Source: Anaerolineae bacterium (lineage in GTDB: Bacteria; Chloroflexota; Anaerolineae; Caldilineales; Caldilineaceae). Taken from it: a stretch of DNA of 64,000 nt. Where the stretch lies: assembly GCA_030432295.1 (NCBI GenBank), contig JAUIHI010000036.1:1-64000 (forward strand), read 5' to 3'. This document shows positions 43,657-52,251 of the stretch, in pieces; position 1 is the stretch's first letter, and each line of letters starts with the position of its first letter. The translations under genes were made by a program, and so were the position numbers. The notes below the pieces were generated by a model. That model was not told the origin of the DNA and ran no database searches. It saw nothing but the letters and a program-made list of their open reading frames with translations.

Positions 43657-43706
43657 GCCAACAAAAAAAGTCCCGCCCATTGATCGGGCGGGACTTTTTT
43701 GTTGGC
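43657..43706. terminator. bidirectional terminator between convergent genes
   Basis: A stem of GCCAACAAAAAAAGTCCCGCC against GGCGGGACTTTTTTGTTGGC, loop around CATTGATC. A GC-rich stem flanked by A and T runs serves both the rightward oxidase operon and the leftward SHOCT/ABC operon. Confidence 0.88.
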
Positions 43707-43718
43707 AACCGACGACAT

Positions 43719-44114
43719 CTACTCCACAAAAATCTCCACCAATTCCCCGTCCTCATCCATCACTTCCAGAATCTTGCCGGGGACACCGGAGCGCAGCGCG
43801 TCCCGGATTTGGGTCACGTCCAGATTGTTCACCTCTGGCACAAAGCGCGCACCCACCTGTAGCCCCATACTCACCAGCCCCAAAGGCAAAGTCATATTGA
43901 CTTTTGTGCGCCCGGAATCTGTATCCGAGACCCGCAGCCGCATCCAGCGCCCGCTGCTCTCGCCGGAGGCAGACGGCTGGGGACCAGATGGGCGGCGGCC
44001 CGGCTTCTTACTGCTCTTTTCAATCGCCTTCAGCAGACGCGTGCCCTCCTCCGCCGAAATTTTGCCCTCTTCGATCATCCGTAACACCCGCATTCGTTCT
44101 TCGCTTGTTGGCAT
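43719..44114 (-). CDS. SHOCT-like domain protein (small)
   Basis: 131 residues; AAGGAG precedes the ATG. The N-terminus is a short helical SHOCT/YvlB-N-like module (EERMRVLRMIEEGKISAEEG TRLL in two pieces), then a Ser/Pro-rich linker, then a domain beginning RWMRLRVSDTDSGRTKVNMT, LPLGLVSMGLQVGARFVPEV with an acidic end (EVMDEDGELVEIFVE). This second part is common after such modules and looks like an intracellular domain. Last gene of the leftward cluster 48133 to 43719. It shares the module with the DUF4097-like and DUF2089 proteins of the same cluster. Confidence 0.8.
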   Translation of the reverse strand: MPTSEERMRVLRMIEEGKISAEEGTRLLKAIEKSSKKPGRRPSGPQPSASGESSGRWMRLRVSDTDSGRTKVNMTLPLGLVSMGLQVGARFVPEVNNLDVTQIRDALRSGVPGKILEVMDEDGELVEIFVE

Positions 44115-44321
44115 AGAAATACTCCTTGAAAGGGATCCGATTCCCTGAAACTGTGTCGTCGCTGTGCTTTTCGTATTGCGTGCTGTGTCGATAGTGGCAA
44201 TTGCTCGGCTTCTGCTGAACAGCGTTAGGTGAAAGGCGAGAAATCCCTTCGCTTTCCAACTTCACTTCAGATGGTTCTGCCGCCGATGCCGTCATCTCCC
44301 CTACTTACGCAGCACGCAATA

Positions 44322-45110
44322 TCAGTACTGTCCCAGCGCGCCCAGCCGCCGCGCCCGGTTCTCGCACCAGCGGAAGAAGAACCAGCCCACCACAAAATAG
44401 ATCGCCGAGTTGATCACCAGTCCCACCAGCGAGCCGTCCTGCCAGACTTGGGCCAGAGATTGGCCGTCCAAAATAACCCGGCGCAGGACGATAATCCCCT
44501 GCGTCGTGGGAAGTGTCTTGGCGAAGGCTTCCATCCAGCCGGGCAGCCGGTCCACGGGCAGGAGCGCGCCGTTGAGAAAGAGCAGCACATTCTGCATCAT
44601 ATTGGCCAGGGCTTCCACCTGTTTGAAGACGAGCGTCGCGCCGCCCAGAATGAAGGCGAAGCCATACAGCCCGGCCATTGTGAGCAAGAAGACGGGTAGG
44701 GCAGTCCAAGTGATGGGCAGAGAGACGCCCAGGGCCAGCACCAGCACCACCGCCGACATCCCCACCATCAGAATGCTGATAAAGAGCGACGCAATCGAGC
44801 GGCCCAGCATCAACACACCCGTGGGCAGCGGAGACATATACATCTGTTCCAGGGTTCCGGTCTGGGTCTCTTCGCGGATGCCCCAACTCATATCCGAGAT
44901 GGCGGCCAGGGCGAAGAACCAGACCAGATAGCCCACCAGCCCAGAGGCCAGCATTTCCGGGTTCGGTTGGCCCCCGGCCATAAAGAAACTGATACCGACA
45001 AAAATGAAGCCGATCATAAACATCTGGGTAAAGAAGTTGAATTTATAGGCCCAGAGCAGAATGAACCGCTTCTGAATTTCGTTGACCACAACTGTGCCAG
45101 CCAGCGCCAT
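44322..45110 (-). CDS. ABC-2 type transporter permease
   Basis: 262 residues, six predicted membrane helices: NFFTQMFMIGFIFVGISFFM, LVGYLVWFFALAAISD, the EETQTGTLEQMYMSPLPTGV cytoplasmic coupling segment typical of ABC-2 permeases, then SIASLFISILMVGMSAVVLV and further helices to the C-terminus. It pairs with the ATPase immediately upstream; the ATPase stop and this start share one base (45110). Likely exports a lipid, peptide or drug. Half-size permease, so a dimer. Confidence 0.9.
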   Translation of the reverse strand: MALAGTVVVNEIQKRFILLWAYKFNFFTQMFMIGFIFVGISFFMAGGQPNPEMLASGLVGYLVWFFALAAISDMSWGIREETQTGTLEQMYMSPLPTGVLMLGRSIASLFISILMVGMSAVVLVLALGVSLPITWTALPVFLLTMAGLYGFAFILGGATLVFKQVEALANMMQNVLLFLNGALLPVDRLPGWMEAFAKTLPTTQGIIVLRRVILDGQSLAQVWQDGSLVGLVINSAIYFVVGWFFFRWCENRARRLGALGQY

Positions 45111-46123
45111 CAGATCACCTCCCGGATTGTGGCGTGGGGGAGACGCCCGTTCATCGGATGGGCCGGGCTGTGCTCACCCTTGCCCGCCCGATCCAGCAGT
45201 TCCACAAAAATCTCTTCCAGATTGGGGTCCGCCTGGGCCACGCCGAGGAGTTCCAACCCCTGGATTTCGGCTATTTCCAGCAGTCGGTAGAGCCGTCCGT
45301 GTTCGCTGATTGTGCCGGAAAGGATCGTATGTCCGTTCTCTTCCCGGGGGGAAAAGCCCTCGAAACGGGCCGCAACCGATTCCTCAATCTTGCCCCGGAA
45401 GCGCAGTTCGTAGCCCTCCTGGCGGAAGAGACCGAGCAGCTCGCCCGTGGGCCGGTTGGCTATCAATTTGCCCTGGCTCATAATCGCCACCTGATCGCAC
45501 AGGCTCTCGGCCAGGTCCATCTGGTGGGTGGTGAGGACGACGGTCTTGCCTTCGTTGCGGGCCAGTTGCTCCACCCAGCGTTTGACTGTGCGCCCGGCCT
45601 TCACATCCAGGCCAAGCGTCGGCTCGTCCAGCAGGACAATCGGCGGATCGGCCACCAGCGCACAGGCGATAGCGACCTTCTGCTGCATCCCTCGCGAGAA
45701 GTCCCGCACGGGATCGTTGCGCCGTTCCCAAAGCTCCAACTCCCGCAGCAGCCGCTCGGCCCGCTCTTTCAGCGGTTGGCCTGTCACCCCTTTGATGCGG
45801 CCAAAGTAGAGCAGATTCTGCCAGGCTGTCAGCCGCCAGTAGACGTTGCGGGTTCCTTCCAGCACCGCGCCGATCTGGCGCATGGCCTGGCCCCGCTGGC
45901 GTTGCACATCGAAGCCGTGGAGTCGCACGCTCCCGCCGGTGGGCAGGACCAGCCCGCAGGCCATTTTGATCGTCGTCGTCTTGCCCGCACCGTTGGAGCC
46001 GAGAAAGCCGAATATCTGTCCGGCGGGAATGGAGAGGCTGAGATCGTCCACCGCGATGACAGGCGGGCTTTTGCGTTTGGTATACACTTTGCTCAGCCCG
46101 TCAATCTCAATCGCAGCCGTCAT
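45110..46123 (-). CDS. ABC transporter ATP-binding protein
   Basis: 337 residues. Walker A GSNGAGKTTTIKMACGL, Q-loop IGAVLEGTRNVYWRLTAW, signature DFSRGMQQKVAIACALVADP, Walker B IVLLDEPTLGLD and switch His in TTHQMDLAESL. A C-terminal extension (about 225-337, LFRQEGYELRFRGKIEESVA) is the DUF4162-type tail of ABC-2 exporters. It drives the permease encoded next in the operon, between the DUF4097-like and SHOCT proteins. Confidence 0.93.
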   Translation of the reverse strand: MTAAIEIDGLSKVYTKRKSPPVIAVDDLSLSIPAGQIFGFLGSNGAGKTTTIKMACGLVLPTGGSVRLHGFDVQRQRGQAMRQIGAVLEGTRNVYWRLTAWQNLLYFGRIKGVTGQPLKERAERLLRELELWERRNDPVRDFSRGMQQKVAIACALVADPPIVLLDEPTLGLDVKAGRTVKRWVEQLARNEGKTVVLTTHQMDLAESLCDQVAIMSQGKLIANRPTGELLGLFRQEGYELRFRGKIEESVAARFEGFSPREENGHTILSGTISEHGRLYRLLEIAEIQGLELLGVAQADPNLEEIFVELLDRAGKGEHSPAHPMNGRLPHATIREVI

Positions 46124-46156
46124 CGCACCCTCCCCATTCCGAATTCATCATTCAGA

Positions 46157-47440
46157 TCATTCGGCATCGCCCAGTGCCTCCAGGAGTGTGGCCGCTTCTG
46201 CCGCCGAGATTTTGCCCTCTTCCAGCATCCGCAACACCAGCCCCCGCTCCTCGTCCGAAACCGGCTCGCCTGGGACCGCTTCTTCCACCGGGTCGAATGG
46301 CGCACTCCAGGCAGGGGGTGTGGGCGGTGTAGGCGGTGTGGGGGGCGTAGCCACATCGGCAAAATTGAAGTTCCAATTTTTGCCTTCGCCCCATTCCATT
46401 TTGGCCGTGTGCTTGCTTATCTCCTTCATCTTGCGCGCCACTTTGTCCTGCACCTGGCGGGCAATGTCCCTGCCCAGATTGCCGAACTCCCGGCTCATCT
46501 CCGCGCCCATTGCGCCAAGTTCAGCCCCCATCGCGCCAAGCTCGGCTCCCAATTCATCGCCCATCTTCCCCATATCTTCACTGACACCGCGCAGTGAGCC
46601 ATCGGCCAGGTCTAGCCCTTCCAGAAGGGTGTCGCCTTTGGAAATAAAGGAGAGCACCGCATCGCCCTCTCCAAAACGGAAGGTGTAGACACCCCTGCCC
46701 TTGCGCATACTCTTGCCCTGACTGCGCACGAGCAGATCGCCGCTGGTGACGATCTTGGCCTGGCCGCCGACCTTTTCGGAGAAATGGGCCCGCACATCGC
46801 CCTTGGCCACAGCCCGCACCCGCTGGCTGACAATCTCGTTCAGATGCACATCCCCAGCGGTGTTGATAGAGATTTCTGCCTGGCAGCGCAATAGATGGGT
46901 GTCGCCTTTGGCATTGACCTGGATTTTCTCGCCGGTCACTTCGGCCAGATGCACATCGCCTTTGGCATTGGCGGAGACAGAGCCAGCCACCTGGTGGGCG
47001 TGGATGTCGCCTTTGGCGCCGACGGAAACTGGGCCACGCACATCGCTGAGATGGGCATCCCCGTGTATTTCCCTGGCTTCTATAGAGTCAATTTGTGACG
47101 CCTGAAAATCACCGCCAACTTCTTTGATCTCTACCTTGCCCCCACCGGACACAGTGGCATCACCGCCGCAAAAGACGATAGTTACCCTGTTGTGCAGGCC
47201 GTCAACCAGCAGATCGCCGTGGGTTTCAATCTCTACTACCGCCCAAATCGGCAGGTAGACGTCACAATCTCCCCGGCATTCCACTTGCAGTGTGCCCTCC
47301 GCCTGTTGGATGGAAGGCGTCTCGTCCAATCCTTCCGCACGGACGATCGCGCCCTCCTGGCCGTGGACTTTCAGATCGCCGTCTGTTTTGATCTGGACGG
47401 TAACACCTTCCGTCACTTCGATTTGCTGTTGATTTGTCAT
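46157..47440 (-). CDS. DUF4097-like beta-solenoid protein with C-terminal SHOCT module
   Basis: 427 residues. The first 270 are repetitive beta-strand turns of about 20-22 residues with a KGD(I/V/T)H step (AKGDIHAHQVAG, AKGDVHLAEVTG, AKGDTHLLRCQA, TAGDVHLNEIVS, AKGDVRAHFSEK), as in the YvlB/DUF4097 adhesin-like family. A helical low-complexity segment follows (ELGAMGAELGAMGAEMSREF), then a PTPPTPPTPP linker and a C-terminal SHOCT-like helix pair (GLVLRMLEEGKISAAEAATL). No signal peptide, so probably cytoplasmic or membrane-peripheral. Its DUF2089 neighbour upstream is the likely regulator. Confidence 0.85.
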   Translation of the reverse strand: MTNQQQIEVTEGVTVQIKTDGDLKVHGQEGAIVRAEGLDETPSIQQAEGTLQVECRGDCDVYLPIWAVVEIETHGDLLVDGLHNRVTIVFCGGDATVSGGGKVEIKEVGGDFQASQIDSIEAREIHGDAHLSDVRGPVSVGAKGDIHAHQVAGSVSANAKGDVHLAEVTGEKIQVNAKGDTHLLRCQAEISINTAGDVHLNEIVSQRVRAVAKGDVRAHFSEKVGGQAKIVTSGDLLVRSQGKSMRKGRGVYTFRFGEGDAVLSFISKGDTLLEGLDLADGSLRGVSEDMGKMGDELGAELGAMGAELGAMGAEMSREFGNLGRDIARQVQDKVARKMKEISKHTAKMEWGEGKNWNFNFADVATPPTPPTPPTPPAWSAPFDPVEEAVPGEPVSDEERGLVLRMLEEGKISAAEAATLLEALGDAE

Positions 47441-47495
47441 TTTACTTTCCTTCTCTCTGAAATAATCTGCGGTTAGGATAACAGGGGATTCCGCC

Positions 47496-47882
47496 CTACG
47501 CTTCCCCTTCCAGGCGGCGCATGGCCTCGGCGTAGCTCAGTTCCCCGGATTCCAGGGCTTCGAGGATTTTGCGCCGCTCCTTCTCGGAAACAGAGACAGC
47601 CTCCTCCTTGCCCGGCTCGTAGCCCAGGGCACGGATGACTTCGTGCAGCCGTCCCCGGATGGTGGGGTAGGAGATGCCCAGTTCCTCTTCCATCCGGTTC
47701 AGTTTGCCTTCGCAGCGCACAAATGTCAGCGCGAAGTGCATCTGTTCCGGCGACAGCCCGGCGAAGGGGGATTCAGCGACGAAACGCCCCTCCACCCGGC
47801 TGTCACAGTTGCGGCAATAGAAGCCGGTGACGGTCAGATCACCGGCTTCGCAGATGGGGCACTGCTTGGGTAGCTTGTTCAT
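47496..47882 (-). CDS. DUF2089 zinc-ribbon/HTH regulator
   Basis: 128 residues. An N-terminal zinc ribbon (CPICEAGDLTVTGFYCRNC, two CxxC pairs) is followed by PFAGLSPEQMHFALTFVRCE and a helix-turn-helix with GKLNRMEEELGISYPTIRGR. The C-terminus has a SHOCT-like module (EKERRKILEALESGELSYAE). DUF2089 proteins are presumed DNA-binding regulators of adjacent envelope genes. It overlaps the 84-residue gene by 4 bases (ATGA). Confidence 0.85.
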   Translation of the reverse strand: MNKLPKQCPICEAGDLTVTGFYCRNCDSRVEGRFVAESPFAGLSPEQMHFALTFVRCEGKLNRMEEELGISYPTIRGRLHEVIRALGYEPGKEEAVSVSEKERRKILEALESGELSYAEAMRRLEGEA

Positions 47883-48133
47883 AAGGCACGTCCCAGTCGC
47901 CGGTTCTTGGCATAGTCGGTCATATTCACGCCCTGCTCCATATGCCGGTAGCGCCGTTGCAATCCCACCCCGGCGGCCACCAGAAGGTCACCCGTGCGGG
48001 CCAATGCCTCACTGACCACAGAAGAACCCTTCGATCCCTGTGTCATTTCTCGTTCGGCCTGGTTCTGTGTGGCCTCGCGCAGCAGTTCCTGATAGCGTGC
48101 CTGGTTGTGGCGAATCAATTGTTCCGTAAACAT
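47879..48133 (-). CDS. small hypothetical protein, first gene of the SHOCT/ABC cluster
   Basis: 84 residues, no family recognised. GGAGGAAG precedes the ATG at 48133. The N-terminus is helical and amphipathic (MFTEQLIRHNQARYQELLRE, ATQNQAEREM), the middle small-residue rich (VSEALARTGDLLVAAGVGLQ), the C-terminus basic (YAKNRRLGRAL). No membrane segment or metal site. Translationally coupled to the DUF2089 regulator, so it may be its partner or sensor. Confidence 0.7.
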   Translation of the reverse strand: MFTEQLIRHNQARYQELLREATQNQAEREMTQGSKGSSVVSEALARTGDLLVAAGVGLQRRYRHMEQGVNMTDYAKNRRLGRAL

Positions 48134-48488
48134 TTTCTCTTCCTCCGTTCAAGAATCAGCCCAGAATTTCCTGGCGCATGAATATCATATCACAAATTTT
48201 GAGGTTGTCAATAGGTAAAATCAATCTTATTGATATTTTTATTGAAATTATTGATATTTCCTATGAAATTCATCAATTCTAATGAAAAATCAACAAGAAA
48301 CTGGTGAATTGTGTGCCGAACCAGGCAATTTCCACAGAATCTGCCCTCCATCTAAATACTTTCCTAACATCTTTGGCGTACAATTGCCCAGAGCGGGTTT
48401 CTCCTTTACAATCCCCATTGCGTTCGGGAGTGAATTTTGCCCGCATTTATCAGAGTTCATCAGTGGCTATTTTGAATCAGGCGAATCA
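48134..48488. promoter_or_regulatory. AT-rich divergent regulatory region with ATTGAT repeats
   Basis: 355 bases without a gene between the leftward SHOCT/ABC cluster and the rightward two-component system. From 48180 to 48295 it is very AT-rich. TTATTGATATTT occurs exactly twice, at 48227-48238 and 48248-48259, 21 bp apart (two helix turns). ATCAAT-CTT-ATTGAT (48220-48234) is a palindrome, and ATTGAT at 48250-48255 is inverted to ATCAAT at 48272-48277. This is a plausible operator array for the DUF2089 protein or the adjacent response regulator. Confidence 0.6.
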
Positions 48489-49166
48489 ATGACAACAATC
48501 CTTGTAGTAGACGACAAAGCCAGCCTGCGCACAATGGTGGAAGCCTATCTCACCCAAGAGGGCTACCGGGTAGTAACAGCGGGCGACGGACGCAGTGCTC
48601 TCTTCGTAGCCCGCCAGGAGAAGCCCGACCTGATTCTGCTCGATGTGATGATGCCGGAGCTGGACGGCTTTGGTTTTATCAAAGCCCACAAGCAGGAGCG
48701 GGACACGCCGATTGTCCTCCTCACCGCCCGGCTGGACGAGGTGGACAAAGTGGTGGGGCTGGAACTGGGCGCGGATGACTACATCACCAAACCCTTTTCC
48801 ATGCGCGAACTGGTGGCACGCATCCGGGCGGTGTTGCGCCGGGCCGAGAAACAGGCCGCGCCCGCGGATGTGCTGGAAATTGACGCTCTGCGCCTGGACC
48901 GCACCAGCCGTCTGGTCTGGAGAGATGGGGAAGCTGTCACCCTCACCCCCTCCGAATTCGATATTCTGGCTCTGCTGATGGAAAGTCCAGGCCGGGTCTA
49001 CTCCCGGGAGTCGATTTTGGACAATTTGCAGGGCATCTTTGTGGCGGGCAGCGAACGCTCGGTGGATGTCCACATCCGCAACCTGCGCCGCAAGATCGAG
49101 CCAGACCCGGCCAACCCCCACTATGTGGAGACGGTATTTGGAGTCGGTTATCGGATGAGAGGGTAA
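48489..49166 (+). CDS. OmpR-family response regulator
   Basis: 225 residues from the ATG at 48489, where the receiver domain begins (TTILVVDDKASLRTMVEAYL). Phosphoacceptor D52 in LILLDVMMPELDG, then ADDYITKPFSMRELVARIRA, and a C-terminal winged helix (TLTPSEFDILALLMESPGRV, SVDVHIRNLRRKIEPD). Upstream in-frame codons to 48282 run through the AT-rich operator region and are not coding. One base separates its stop from the kinase start. Confidence 0.94.
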   Translation: MTTILVVDDKASLRTMVEAYLTQEGYRVVTAGDGRSALFVARQEKPDLILLDVMMPELDGFGFIKAHKQERDTPIVLLTARLDEVDKVVGLELGADDYITKPFSMRELVARIRAVLRRAEKQAAPADVLEIDALRLDRTSRLVWRDGEAVTLTPSEFDILALLMESPGRVYSRESILDNLQGIFVAGSERSVDVHIRNLRRKIEPDPANPHYVETVFGVGYRMRG

Positions 49167-49167
49167 T

Positions 49168-50517
49168 ATGCGTTCTCTGACCCTCAAACTCACCCTGGCT
49201 TTTTTGATTGTCGGACTCTCCGGCGCGGCGCTGGTCGCGCTCTTTTCTGTCAGCAATACATCCAACGCCTTCGACCGTTTCCGCTCTGAGCAGGCATTAC
49301 AGGGCTTTGCCACCGAAATGCAGAGCTACTACGAGCGCACCGGTTCCTGGGAGGGCGTGGACAATCTCTCCCGACGACCACCGCCGAACAACAACGGACC
49401 CTTGCCCGATCTCGTCCCGCAGATTCTGGTTGACAAAAAGGGTTCTGTTCTGATCGCCTTCCCCCCCTATCGTCCCGGCCAGACTCTGCCGGTAAATGTG
49501 TTGGGTCAGGGCATTGCGGTCGAAGTTAACGGAGAGCAGGTGGGGACGGTTCTCAATGTGGGCAATACGAGCCGTACAGCCCAGGATCGTCTTTTTCTGG
49601 CCCAGCTCTCCCAGGCCCTCATCTGGGCCGCGCTGGGCGCAACACTTTTTGCCCTGCTGCTGGGATTGGGACTGGCCCGCACCCTCACCCGGCCACTCGT
49701 CGCGCTGACCCAGGCTGTGCGCCGTATCGCCGGTGGGGATTTCGGCCAGACTGTAGCCGTCGAGTCCAAAGATGAGATCGGCCAGTTGGCTGGGGCTTTC
49801 AACCAGATGAGCAGCGAGCTGGCCCACTCGGCCCACCTGCGCCGCCAGATGACCGCGGACATCGCCCACGAACTGCGCACACCCCTCAGTGTGCTGATGG
49901 GCTACACCGAATCTCTCTCCGATGGGGTGCTGCAACCCACCCCCGCCATCCTGCGCGCCATGCACGAAGAGAGCCGCCTGCTCAGCCATCTGGTGGACGA
50001 TTTGCGCACCCTCTCCCTGGCCGATGCCGGGGAACTGACCCTCAACCGGCAGCTCATTGCCCCGGCTGAATTGCTGGAACGGGTGGCGGCCTCCTTTGCG
50101 TCCAGAGCCCGGGCCAAAGGCGTCGATCTGCGGCTGGAAATCGGCCCGCTATTGCCCCCGGTATCTCTGGACCCGGAACGCATTGTACAGGTGTTGGGCA
50201 ATCTGGTGGGCAACGCCATCCGCTACACGCCCACCGGGGGCACAGTCACATTGCGGGGGCTGGCTGCGAATGGAGGGGTGCTGCTTCAGGTGGCAGACAC
50301 GGGGGCTGGCATCGCGCCGGAGCAGTTGCCCTATATTTTTGAGCGTTTTTATAAAGAAGACACAGCGCGTACGGTTGACGAAACAGAGTCCGGGCTGGGA
50401 CTGAGCATCGCCAAATCCCTGGTGGAATTGCACGGGGGAAAGCTGAGCGCGGAGAGTGAGGTGGGGCGGGGGACGGTGATGGGTGTGTGGCTACCCGGCG
50501 GCGGAAGTGAACAGTGA
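49168..50517 (+). CDS. sensor histidine kinase
   Basis: 449 residues. Membrane helix about 8-28, external sensor region with YYERTGSWEGVDNL (closely similar to the other kinase in this window), second membrane helix about 148-170, HAMP about 171-223, phosphoacceptor H234 in DIAHELRTPL, N-box NLVGNAIRYTPTGG, DTGAGI, and SGLGLSIAKSLVELHGG. Its partner is the regulator directly upstream. The stop codon (50515-50517) lies inside the following hairpin repeat. Confidence 0.94.
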   Translation: MRSLTLKLTLAFLIVGLSGAALVALFSVSNTSNAFDRFRSEQALQGFATEMQSYYERTGSWEGVDNLSRRPPPNNNGPLPDLVPQILVDKKGSVLIAFPPYRPGQTLPVNVLGQGIAVEVNGEQVGTVLNVGNTSRTAQDRLFLAQLSQALIWAALGATLFALLLGLGLARTLTRPLVALTQAVRRIAGGDFGQTVAVESKDEIGQLAGAFNQMSSELAHSAHLRRQMTADIAHELRTPLSVLMGYTESLSDGVLQPTPAILRAMHEESRLLSHLVDDLRTLSLADAGELTLNRQLIAPAELLERVAASFASRARAKGVDLRLEIGPLLPPVSLDPERIVQVLGNLVGNAIRYTPTGGTVTLRGLAANGGVLLQVADTGAGIAPEQLPYIFERFYKEDTARTVDETESGLGLSIAKSLVELHGGKLSAESEVGRGTVMGVWLPGGGSEQ

Positions 50518-50576: not shown

Positions 50577-51491
50577 TTACTCGCCCTCTTTGAAAATCTC
50601 TTTAATCCCTCCCAGCGCGCCCAGCACACCGGACGCCTCGTAGGGCAGGAAGACTTTTGTGCTTGTCCCGTTCGCCATCTCTTTCAGCGCTTCCAGATAT
50701 TGGATAGCGATGAGTTTGTCGTCCGGGTTGGATGCGGTGATGGCGTTGTAGACAGTTGTGATGGCGCTGCCCCGGCCCGCGGCTTCCACTTCCAGCTTAT
50801 AGCGTTCGGCGTCGGCCACCCGGCGCACAGCCTCGGCCTGACCTTCCGCAGCCAGGATTGCGGCCTGTCGGCTGCCCTCCGCGGCCAAAATCGCGGACTG
50901 GCGTGCGCCCTCGGCTTCCAGAATCGAGGCCCGCTTCTCCCGCTCGGCTTTCATCTGCCGGTGCATAGCCTGGGTCACGTCCGCGGGCGGGTCGATCCGT
51001 TTGATCTCCACACGCACCACACGCACACCCCATTTGTCTGTGGCGTCGTCCAACACCTCTCGCAGTTTGGTGTTGATGTGCTCCCGGGAGGTCAGCGCGC
51101 TGTCCAGTTCCATCTCACCGATGACATTACGCAGATTGGTCTGGGCCAGTTTGGTGGCGGCCTGGTAGAAATCCGCCACATTGTAGACCAGCTTCACCGG
51201 GTCGGTGGCCTCAAAGTAGACAATCGCGTCCACTGTCACCACCACATTGTCTTTGGTGATCACCTCCTGGGGCGGCACGTCCACCACTTGCTCCCGCATA
51301 TCCACCTTTTGGATGGAATCCAGAAAGGGAATAATGAGGGTCAGCCCCGGCTGGGCGATGCGCTGGTAGCGTCCCAACCGCTCGATCACACCCTTCTGAT
51401 AGGGCGAAACAATGCGGATACCGGCGACGGCGACGATAATCACAAAGAGGGCAATCAGCCCAAGCAACAGAATTGCGCCTACTCCATCCAT
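50577..51491 (-). CDS. SPFH/stomatin-like membrane protein (QmcA/paraslipin type)
   Basis: 304 residues from the ATG at 51491 (AAAGGAG upstream). N-terminal membrane helix (about 5-25), then an SPFH/band-7 domain ([79 protein letters not shown]), and a heptad-rich region with repeated AEGxRQxAILAAEG for oligomerisation. SPFH proteins form membrane ring scaffolds. The nfeD gene upstream is its usual partner. Confidence 0.92.
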
Positions 51492-51523
51492 AAGAGTTCT
51501 CCTTTGAAATAGACTTACACTTT

Positions 51524-51567
51524 CCAATCAACCAATGAACCAGTTGATTAGTTCATCGGTTGATTGG
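51524..51567. repeat. hairpin (TTGATTGGTT family) over the nfeD stop
   Basis: CCAATCAACCAATGAAC (51524-51540) and GTTCATCGGTTGATTGG (51551-51567) match as inverted repeats at 16 of 17 positions. The nfeD stop codon (from 51548) and last codons lie within it. Confidence 0.85.
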
Positions 51568-52027
51568 TTGTACTATCCGTGATGCGCCGCACCTGCAAGC
51601 GTACCCCTTCCACGGCCACCACTTCCACCACACTGTCTTTGGCGATCGGGCTGTGATCCACACTTTCGGCGCGCCATTCCTCTGTGTCCACCCGCACCAT
51701 TCCGGTGTTGGCGATGGGATCGATGGCTTGCAGCACCACCGCCCGTTTGCCCAACACCCGATCCCCAGCCACATCTTGTGGACCTTTGGAGGTGACCCGC
51801 TCGGCGAAGGGACGGGATAGCAACACAGCCGCGCTGGAAACGACGATAAATGCAAGCAATTGCCAGGTCAACCCCAGGCCAAAGAAGGCAAGACCCGCCG
51901 CGGCCAGTGCGCCGAAGCCGAAACAGAGCAACACAAAGCCAGCGGTGAAAATCTCGGCGGCGAAAAATATCAGTGCCAGCACAATCCAGCCCCATAGCAG
52001 CAGGGCACTGTTGGAAACATCGAACAT
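51548..52027 (-). CDS. NfeD-family protein
   Basis: 159 residues from the ATG at 52027 (AGGAGG upstream). Membrane helices at about 9-27, 30-50 and 54-72 (LLLWGWIVLALIFFAAEIFT, LLCFGFGALAAAGLAFFGLG), then a C-terminal OB-fold with VAGDRVLGKRAVVLQAIDPI and a GMVRVDTEEWRAES strand, the NfeD hallmark. It works with SPFH proteins at the membrane. Short form, lacking the serine-protease domain of long NfeD proteins. The final residues TNQPMN are encoded by the hairpin repeat. Confidence 0.9.
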   Translation of the reverse strand: MFDVSNSALLLWGWIVLALIFFAAEIFTAGFVLLCFGFGALAAAGLAFFGLGLTWQLLAFIVVSSAAVLLSRPFAERVTSKGPQDVAGDRVLGKRAVVLQAIDPIANTGMVRVDTEEWRAESVDHSPIAKDSVVEVVAVEGVRLQVRRITDSTTNQPMN

Positions 52028-52251
52028 TGGACACCTCCTGGATGATATGACCAGATTGGCCGCGCAGGGAACAGCCAACAGTCACCAGTCTACCAATCGA
52101 TTGAACTGCATGCCCGACACTTGACTGACACCCGGCAGACGCTGCATGAAACTCTATGTGGTTCATTTTCCCTTGGCAGAGTTTGGCGTTTGGGTCTTTC
52201 TTCTGTAGTATACACCCGTCGCGACTAAACAGAGGGAAGGATCGCATACAA

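Follow-up and report, generated by a model that had tools for sequence, protein, structure and literature searches.

On contig JAUIHI010000036.1 of Anaerolineae bacterium, a member of the Caldilineaceae (Chloroflexota) with a genome of 6.7 Mb, six leftward genes (43719-48133) encode an 84-residue protein, a DUF2089 protein, a Toastrack (DUF4097) protein, the ATPase and the permease of an ABC exporter, and a small protein, and three of these products carry a similar SHOCT-like module. The question that this locus raises is whether the genes belong together, whether the module joins their products, and what part the exporter has in the set. A sequence-only reading of the 64,000-nucleotide stretch analysed here (henceforth ‘the window’) had proposed an envelope-stress-like operon in which the three modules form a shared interaction code, with an exporter driven in parallel; the order, coordinates and minus strand that it assigned to the six open reading frames match ours. 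We find a well-conserved and partly described kind of putative envelope-stress gene set, of which the dedicated exporter is a local variation.

The three modules match one Pfam family, PF22746 (SHOCT-like_DUF2089-C; cut-off 27 bits), at the places where they had been seen by the sequence-only reading, that is at the N-terminus of the small protein (henceforth the small SHOCT protein; residues 5-35, 44 bits, and 45.7 in a whole-genome search) and at the C-termini of the Toastrack protein (residues 397-425, 36.4 bits, and 41 in the whole-genome search) and of the DUF2089 protein (residues 102-125), where the score is borderline (25.4 bits, and 27.8 in the whole-genome search). At E<=0.001 these three are the sole PF22746 matches of the genome, and all lie inside 3.6 kb. 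A set of 41 related genomes yielded 92 PF22746 matches, of which 83 have a second match no more than 6 kb away. Matches occur in 32 of these genomes, 20 of which hold at least three together, a clustering that chance does not explain. A lack of clustering in phylogeny would have refuted the sequence-only reading; the modules do group, and they do so by host protein, with 6 label changes on the tree compared to 39 in shuffles; the result is three subtypes, for none of which single-clade status is rejected, on an alignment of only 31 columns that leaves the branching order unresolvable. The module is constant and its fusion partner varies: besides Toastrack, relatives have, adjoining DUF2089, fusions of the module with pentapeptide repeats (loci L051 and L064), with a different repeat protein (L059), and with two transmembrane segments followed by the small SHOCT protein’s own C-terminal domain. 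Three of the pentapeptide-repeat fusions stand consecutively after DUF2089 in L051, and the repeat in L059 is of the MRIHGVTPEF type.

Co-occurrence of the genes in relatives, the absence of which would likewise have refuted that reading, is far above chance. Among 150 genomes of the class, 109 encode the small SHOCT protein; 60 further class loci contain DUF2089 in 50 cases (48 on the same strand), Toastrack in 39 and either of the two in 58. DUF2089 and Toastrack lie here in one conserved operon, which is the PSP-like context described in the excerpts of Ravi et al. 2024 (PMC11237479). The operon, exporter included, was found in all six same-genus genomes (records named Litorilinea aerophila and Caldilineaceae bacterium), and in the wider family an exporter-free form with DUF2089, Toastrack and small SHOCT genes occurs in some genomes (G008, G019 and G022). 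Chloroflexi bacterium AL-N1 (L096) has the same five genes in one group, with their order changed. Beyond the phylum, Paraclostridium bifermentans and Niallia taxi have plasmids on which DUF2089 is directly followed by the gene of a small SHOCT homologue of full length (27-32% identity), and because the two genes are adjacent in these two Bacillota species, the DUF2089-small SHOCT pair spans phyla. On the Paraclostridium bifermentans plasmid (L215, 6839-7135) the pair is followed by a module-free 99-aa protein with weak likeness to the C-terminal domain of the small SHOCT protein, and on a Legionella adelaidensis plasmid (L217) DUF2089 is flanked by an SbmA/BacA-like transporter and by a Yip1-like membrane protein, the N-terminus of which resembles the module.

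The exporter is far more narrowly distributed. Its ATPase matches TIGR01188 (drrA) best, at 238.5 against a cut-off of 312.45, and its permease scores 23.4 against the cut-off of 146.9 of a DrrB-family model, so that neither belongs to the Drr families by these models. When 84,980 species genomes were scanned with short permease-derived patterns, a search that reaches close relatives only, 31 of 35 permease homologues were in this operon, and of the remaining ones three were outside it in other Chloroflexota and one was at a contig end within the gene. In other members of the class (L162, L169 and L199) the same operon contains a different ABC transporter with two permeases; heterologous ABC-2 genes joined it in two other families. 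Genes accompanying the class loci further include those of MFS transporters (19, in other families), GNAT acetyltransferases (34) and a PF04020 protein with four transmembrane segments (15), as counted from BLAST clusters of which one representative each was scanned. We rejected the possibility that the exporter is ancestral to the core, as the exporter label changes three times on a tree of small SHOCT plus DUF2089 proteins and is confined to Caldilineaceae-related genomes and AL-N1, with heterologous ABC genes elsewhere. Because it is absent or replaced in other lineages, the exporter is a swappable, lineage-specific addition to a conserved core. The proposal of an exporter driven in parallel has to be qualified accordingly, as most core-bearing relatives lack it and some have replaced it.

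The DUF2089 protein combines a zinc ribbon (PF22747, 32.7 bits) and a helix-turn-helix (HTH; PF09862, 75.8 bits) with the C-terminal SHOCT-like part, the division into three that the excerpts of Ravi et al. 2024 (PMC11237479) give for the family; it is the single DUF2089 match over the cut-off in the genome, and a search by sequence found no clear solved relative. The DUF4097 match of the Toastrack protein, the sole one of the genome, is slightly over the cut-off (24.6 against 22.9 bits). Its AlphaFold model predicts an all-beta solenoid, a beta-helix over residues 1-285 (mostly pLDDT >90), then a linker, helical and rich in proline and modelled at low confidence, and a helical SHOCT-like hairpin; the top PDB match of the model is 4QRK, which the excerpts of Ravi et al. 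2024 (PMC11237479) cite as a Toastrack reference structure. Both the profile and the predicted beta-helix place it among Toastrack proteins, for which a right-handed beta-helix is the criterion of fold. By simple hydropathy, only the permease among the six operon proteins has membrane segments, and none is predicted in the Toastrack protein. The small SHOCT protein is modelled with moderate confidence (pLDDT 70.7) as a hairpin, a disordered linker and a beta-beta-alpha-alpha-beta-beta domain, which is strongly conserved and has no Pfam name; Foldseek returned no matches at E<=0.001 for the moderate-confidence model of this domain, and two sequence matches below 0.001 were set aside, being to de novo designed proteins. 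Homologues of the 84-aa protein are encoded immediately 5' of DUF2089 in many Caldilineaceae and share the segment LARxGDLLVAxGxGLQRRY; in one same-genus genome (L038, 1500-2116) DUF2089 is preceded by two tandem copies of the gene.

The features of the locus are collected in the table. Operon genes overlap or are closely spaced (the 84-aa gene overlaps the DUF2089 start by 4 bp, and the ATPase and permease genes have one base in common), save for a gap of 207 bp 5' of the small SHOCT gene. An inverted repeat in this gap, a palindromic element at 44174-44321 with 24-nt arms, was rejected as an operon-specific feature: its arm sequence has 21 near-copies in the genome, several of them as close inverted pairs, compared to 0 for a reversed control pattern, and it is a small dispersed repeat of MITE-like or REP-like kind. 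At 2.4 kb from the operon is a gene for a Band-7/SPFH protein (50577-51527, minus strand), which has an NfeD gene upstream (51548-52078, minus strand). Band-7 homologues were within the fetched SHOCT-operon locus, on either side and strand, in nine Caldilineaceae genomes and in 0 of the 60 other class loci; the host genome has seven band-7 matches.

Table. Features of the operon and its control region (positions in the window)
Feature	Position	Strand	Basis or remark
Intrinsic terminator, 3' of small SHOCT gene	43664..43700	-	16 pairs, T tail
Small SHOCT protein: N-terminal SHOCT-like hairpin, predicted disordered linker, unnamed conserved domain	43719..44114	-	Pfam, model
SHOCT-like module (PF22746) of small SHOCT protein	44010..44102	-	profile match
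ABC-2 type permease	44322..45110	-	Pfam
ABC transporter ATPase, DrrA-like, under DrrA cut-off	45110..46123	-	Pfam, NCBIfam
Toastrack (DUF4097) beta-helix protein, helical/proline-rich linker, C-terminal SHOCT-like hairpin	46157..47440	-	Pfam, model
SHOCT-like module (PF22746) of Toastrack protein	46166..46252	-	profile match
DUF2089 protein: Zn ribbon, HTH, C-terminal SHOCT-like module	47496..47882	-	Pfam
SHOCT-like module (PF22746) of DUF2089	47508..47579	-	profile match
84-aa protein, unknown function, first gene	47879..48133	-	no Pfam family above cut-off
Near-consensus sigma-70 promoter: TTGACA, 16 nt, TG-extended TATGAT	48184..48211	-	11 of 12
Two 21-nt tandem repeats rich in TCAAT/ATTGA, directly 5' of -35, candidate operator	48227..48268	-	
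Divergent OmpR-family response regulator, start inferred at MTTILV	48489..49166	+	linked in the genus only
Histidine kinase of divergent pair	49168..50517	+	

To the sequence-only reading we add a near-consensus promoter, a terminator and a divergent response regulator/kinase pair (48489-50517). The promoter and the 21-nt tandem repeats are conserved in the genus, and a strong promoter is class-wide, a score of at least 10.5 out of 12 being reached in 58% of 103 loci compared to 0.4% of local shuffles and 3.6% of 366 other genes of the same loci. Relative to mononucleotide shuffles, TCAAT/ATTGA boxes are enriched 17-fold in the genus (5.2 per 70 bp versus 0.31), 5-fold in other Caldilineaceae (1.26 versus 0.25) and 2.6-fold elsewhere. 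A strict TTGA-N5-TCAA operator over the -35 was considered (N5-N7 forms are in excess, at 20 of 80 versus 1.15 expected) and is weakened by the variable spacing and by the relatedness of the sequences. The two-component system was rejected as part of the unit, since its adjacency is limited to the genus. Because boxes occur without an adjacent regulator, their distribution favours DUF2089 over the OmpR-type regulator as the candidate box binder.

The relation to envelope-stress sets of the yvl and LiaX type that the sequence-only reading drew is borne out in kind. Bacillus yvlABCD and Enterococcus liaXYZ share with this operon a Toastrack domain and a SHOCT-like helical region; in Bacillus, YvlB has PspA, LiaH and Yvl proteins as two-hybrid partners (PMC9239133), and the enterococcal response is controlled by LiaX (PMC11601895, PMC10269926). 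Unlike those sets, however, the operon lacks PspC (the PspC genes are on another contig), a PF04020 gene and LiaF, and its Toastrack module is C-terminal (residues 397-425 of 427) instead of N-terminal; YvlD/LiaZ-like PF04020 genes do adjoin the core in 15 relatives’ loci. Neither is it a classical PSP operon, the one PspA homologue being on contig C18, nor of the LiaFSR type, as the neighbouring regulator is OmpR-type (Trans_reg_C) and the operon genes include no LiaF-like gene. Two contexts in the excerpts of Ravi et al. 2024 (PMC11237479) are also close. One is a four-gene DUF2089-Toastrack context found in many lineages, which resembles the present set in having SHOCT-like domains on Toastrack proteins, but its partners are LiaI-LiaF-TM, B-box, PspC or sigma-factor genes in place of an ABC exporter and a small SHOCT protein. 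The other consists of separate Toastrack-ABC operons, which likewise contain Toastrack, an ABC ATPase and a permease, but have a GntR or RHH regulator and a membrane-anchored Toastrack where we find DUF2089 and no predicted transmembrane segment. The sequence-only reading, which knew of no description of this exporter-containing arrangement, therefore overstated its novelty; only the combination of both contexts is absent from those excerpts. Leaderless bacteriocin clusters (bawcin, enterocin DD14) have a DUF2089-family protein near an ABC exporter as well (PMC10707071, PMC7332713), although the exporters are HlyD/MacB-like, a bacteriocin gene is present, and the excerpted descriptions report no Toastrack. 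DrrAB and other ABC-2 drug exporters resemble the present pair only below the cut-offs, and in a different context.

We tentatively favour, at a little under an even chance, a sub-membrane envelope-stress operon of the DUF2089-Toastrack kind, in which the module is a docking site and the exporter a swappable output. DUF2089, through its zinc ribbon and HTH, would act on the strong promoter 5' of the operon, and its C-terminal hairpin would dock with the Toastrack protein, as scaffold, and with the small SHOCT protein, directly or via a shared surface; both partners would present the same hairpin on a flexible linker. The modules may bind each other, as an interaction code. A change in the membrane, the presumed stress signal, would alter docking and with it operon expression, and the ABC-2 exporter would remove a membrane-active compound or a lipid, in a slot that other lineages fill with another ABC transporter or an MFS transporter, or leave vacant. 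What the analysis shows of this is the gene content, the shared module, the co-conservation, the promoter and the exchange of exporters; the two-hybrid contacts of YvlB also count in its favour. Several points weigh against this explanation: a canonical SHOCT domain (PF09851) seemed not to form oligomers in a published test (Eberhardt et al. 2013, PMC3581485), the exporter proteins have no PF22746 match in Pfam and are thus coupled via the operon only, the majority of core-bearing class members do without this exporter, and the near-consensus promoter could reflect constitutive expression. The first of these also speaks for modules that independently anchor proteins to the inner membrane face or to a common membrane partner, so that their co-occurrence would reflect co-localisation. 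Anchoring to the inner leaflet, together with scaffolding, is what the excerpts of Ravi et al. 2024 (PMC11237479) propose for SHOCT-like domains, and the protein with a module, two transmembrane segments and the C-terminal domain adjoins the core in many relatives. We nevertheless consider anchoring rather unlikely, as one module is on a predicted DNA-binding protein without a membrane segment, and this placement, with the three maintained subtypes, fits specific partners at least equally well.

Control of the operon by the divergent two-component system via the ATTGA-type repeats, with DUF2089 not the main regulator, would explain why the repeats are directly 5' of the -35, a position typical of OmpR-family activators, and strongest where the pair adjoins; however, the pair is adjacent in the genus only, and other Caldilineaceae without it have both enriched boxes and DUF2089, which leaves this control distinctly improbable. 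We give a poor chance to the exporter and SHOCT genes being a peptide or antibiotic self-protection set: despite the DrrA-like ATPase, the parallel with the bawcin and enterocin DD14 clusters and a DUF2089 protein that adjoins an aureocin A53-type gene, neither the operon nor its conserved surroundings yielded a recognisable precursor or biosynthesis gene, and the core is widespread without the exporter. That the modules are relics of an ancient domain duplication without present joint function is very improbable given the tight co-conservation across the class and into Bacillota, even though the subtypes are separate by protein and each protein occurs without the others in some genomes.

The docking operon that we favour could also be one case of something wider. 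It is possible, if doubtful, that the SHOCT-like hairpin works as an exchangeable tag for docking and DUF2089 as a hub regulator that reads any tagged partner, with lineages plugging in their own sensors and exporters; the Toastrack protein, the pentapeptide-repeat solenoid, the protein with two transmembrane segments and the small domain protein are, with the same reserve, its candidate partners. Exporter exchange provides a natural series for matching outputs to stresses. Should the tag prove to be a docking code, the many PF22746 proteins whose function is unknown would become testable partners, and the minimal pair of DUF2089 and small SHOCT protein, which extends from Chloroflexota to Bacillota, would account for the wiring of membrane sensing to transcription in many poorly studied bacteria.
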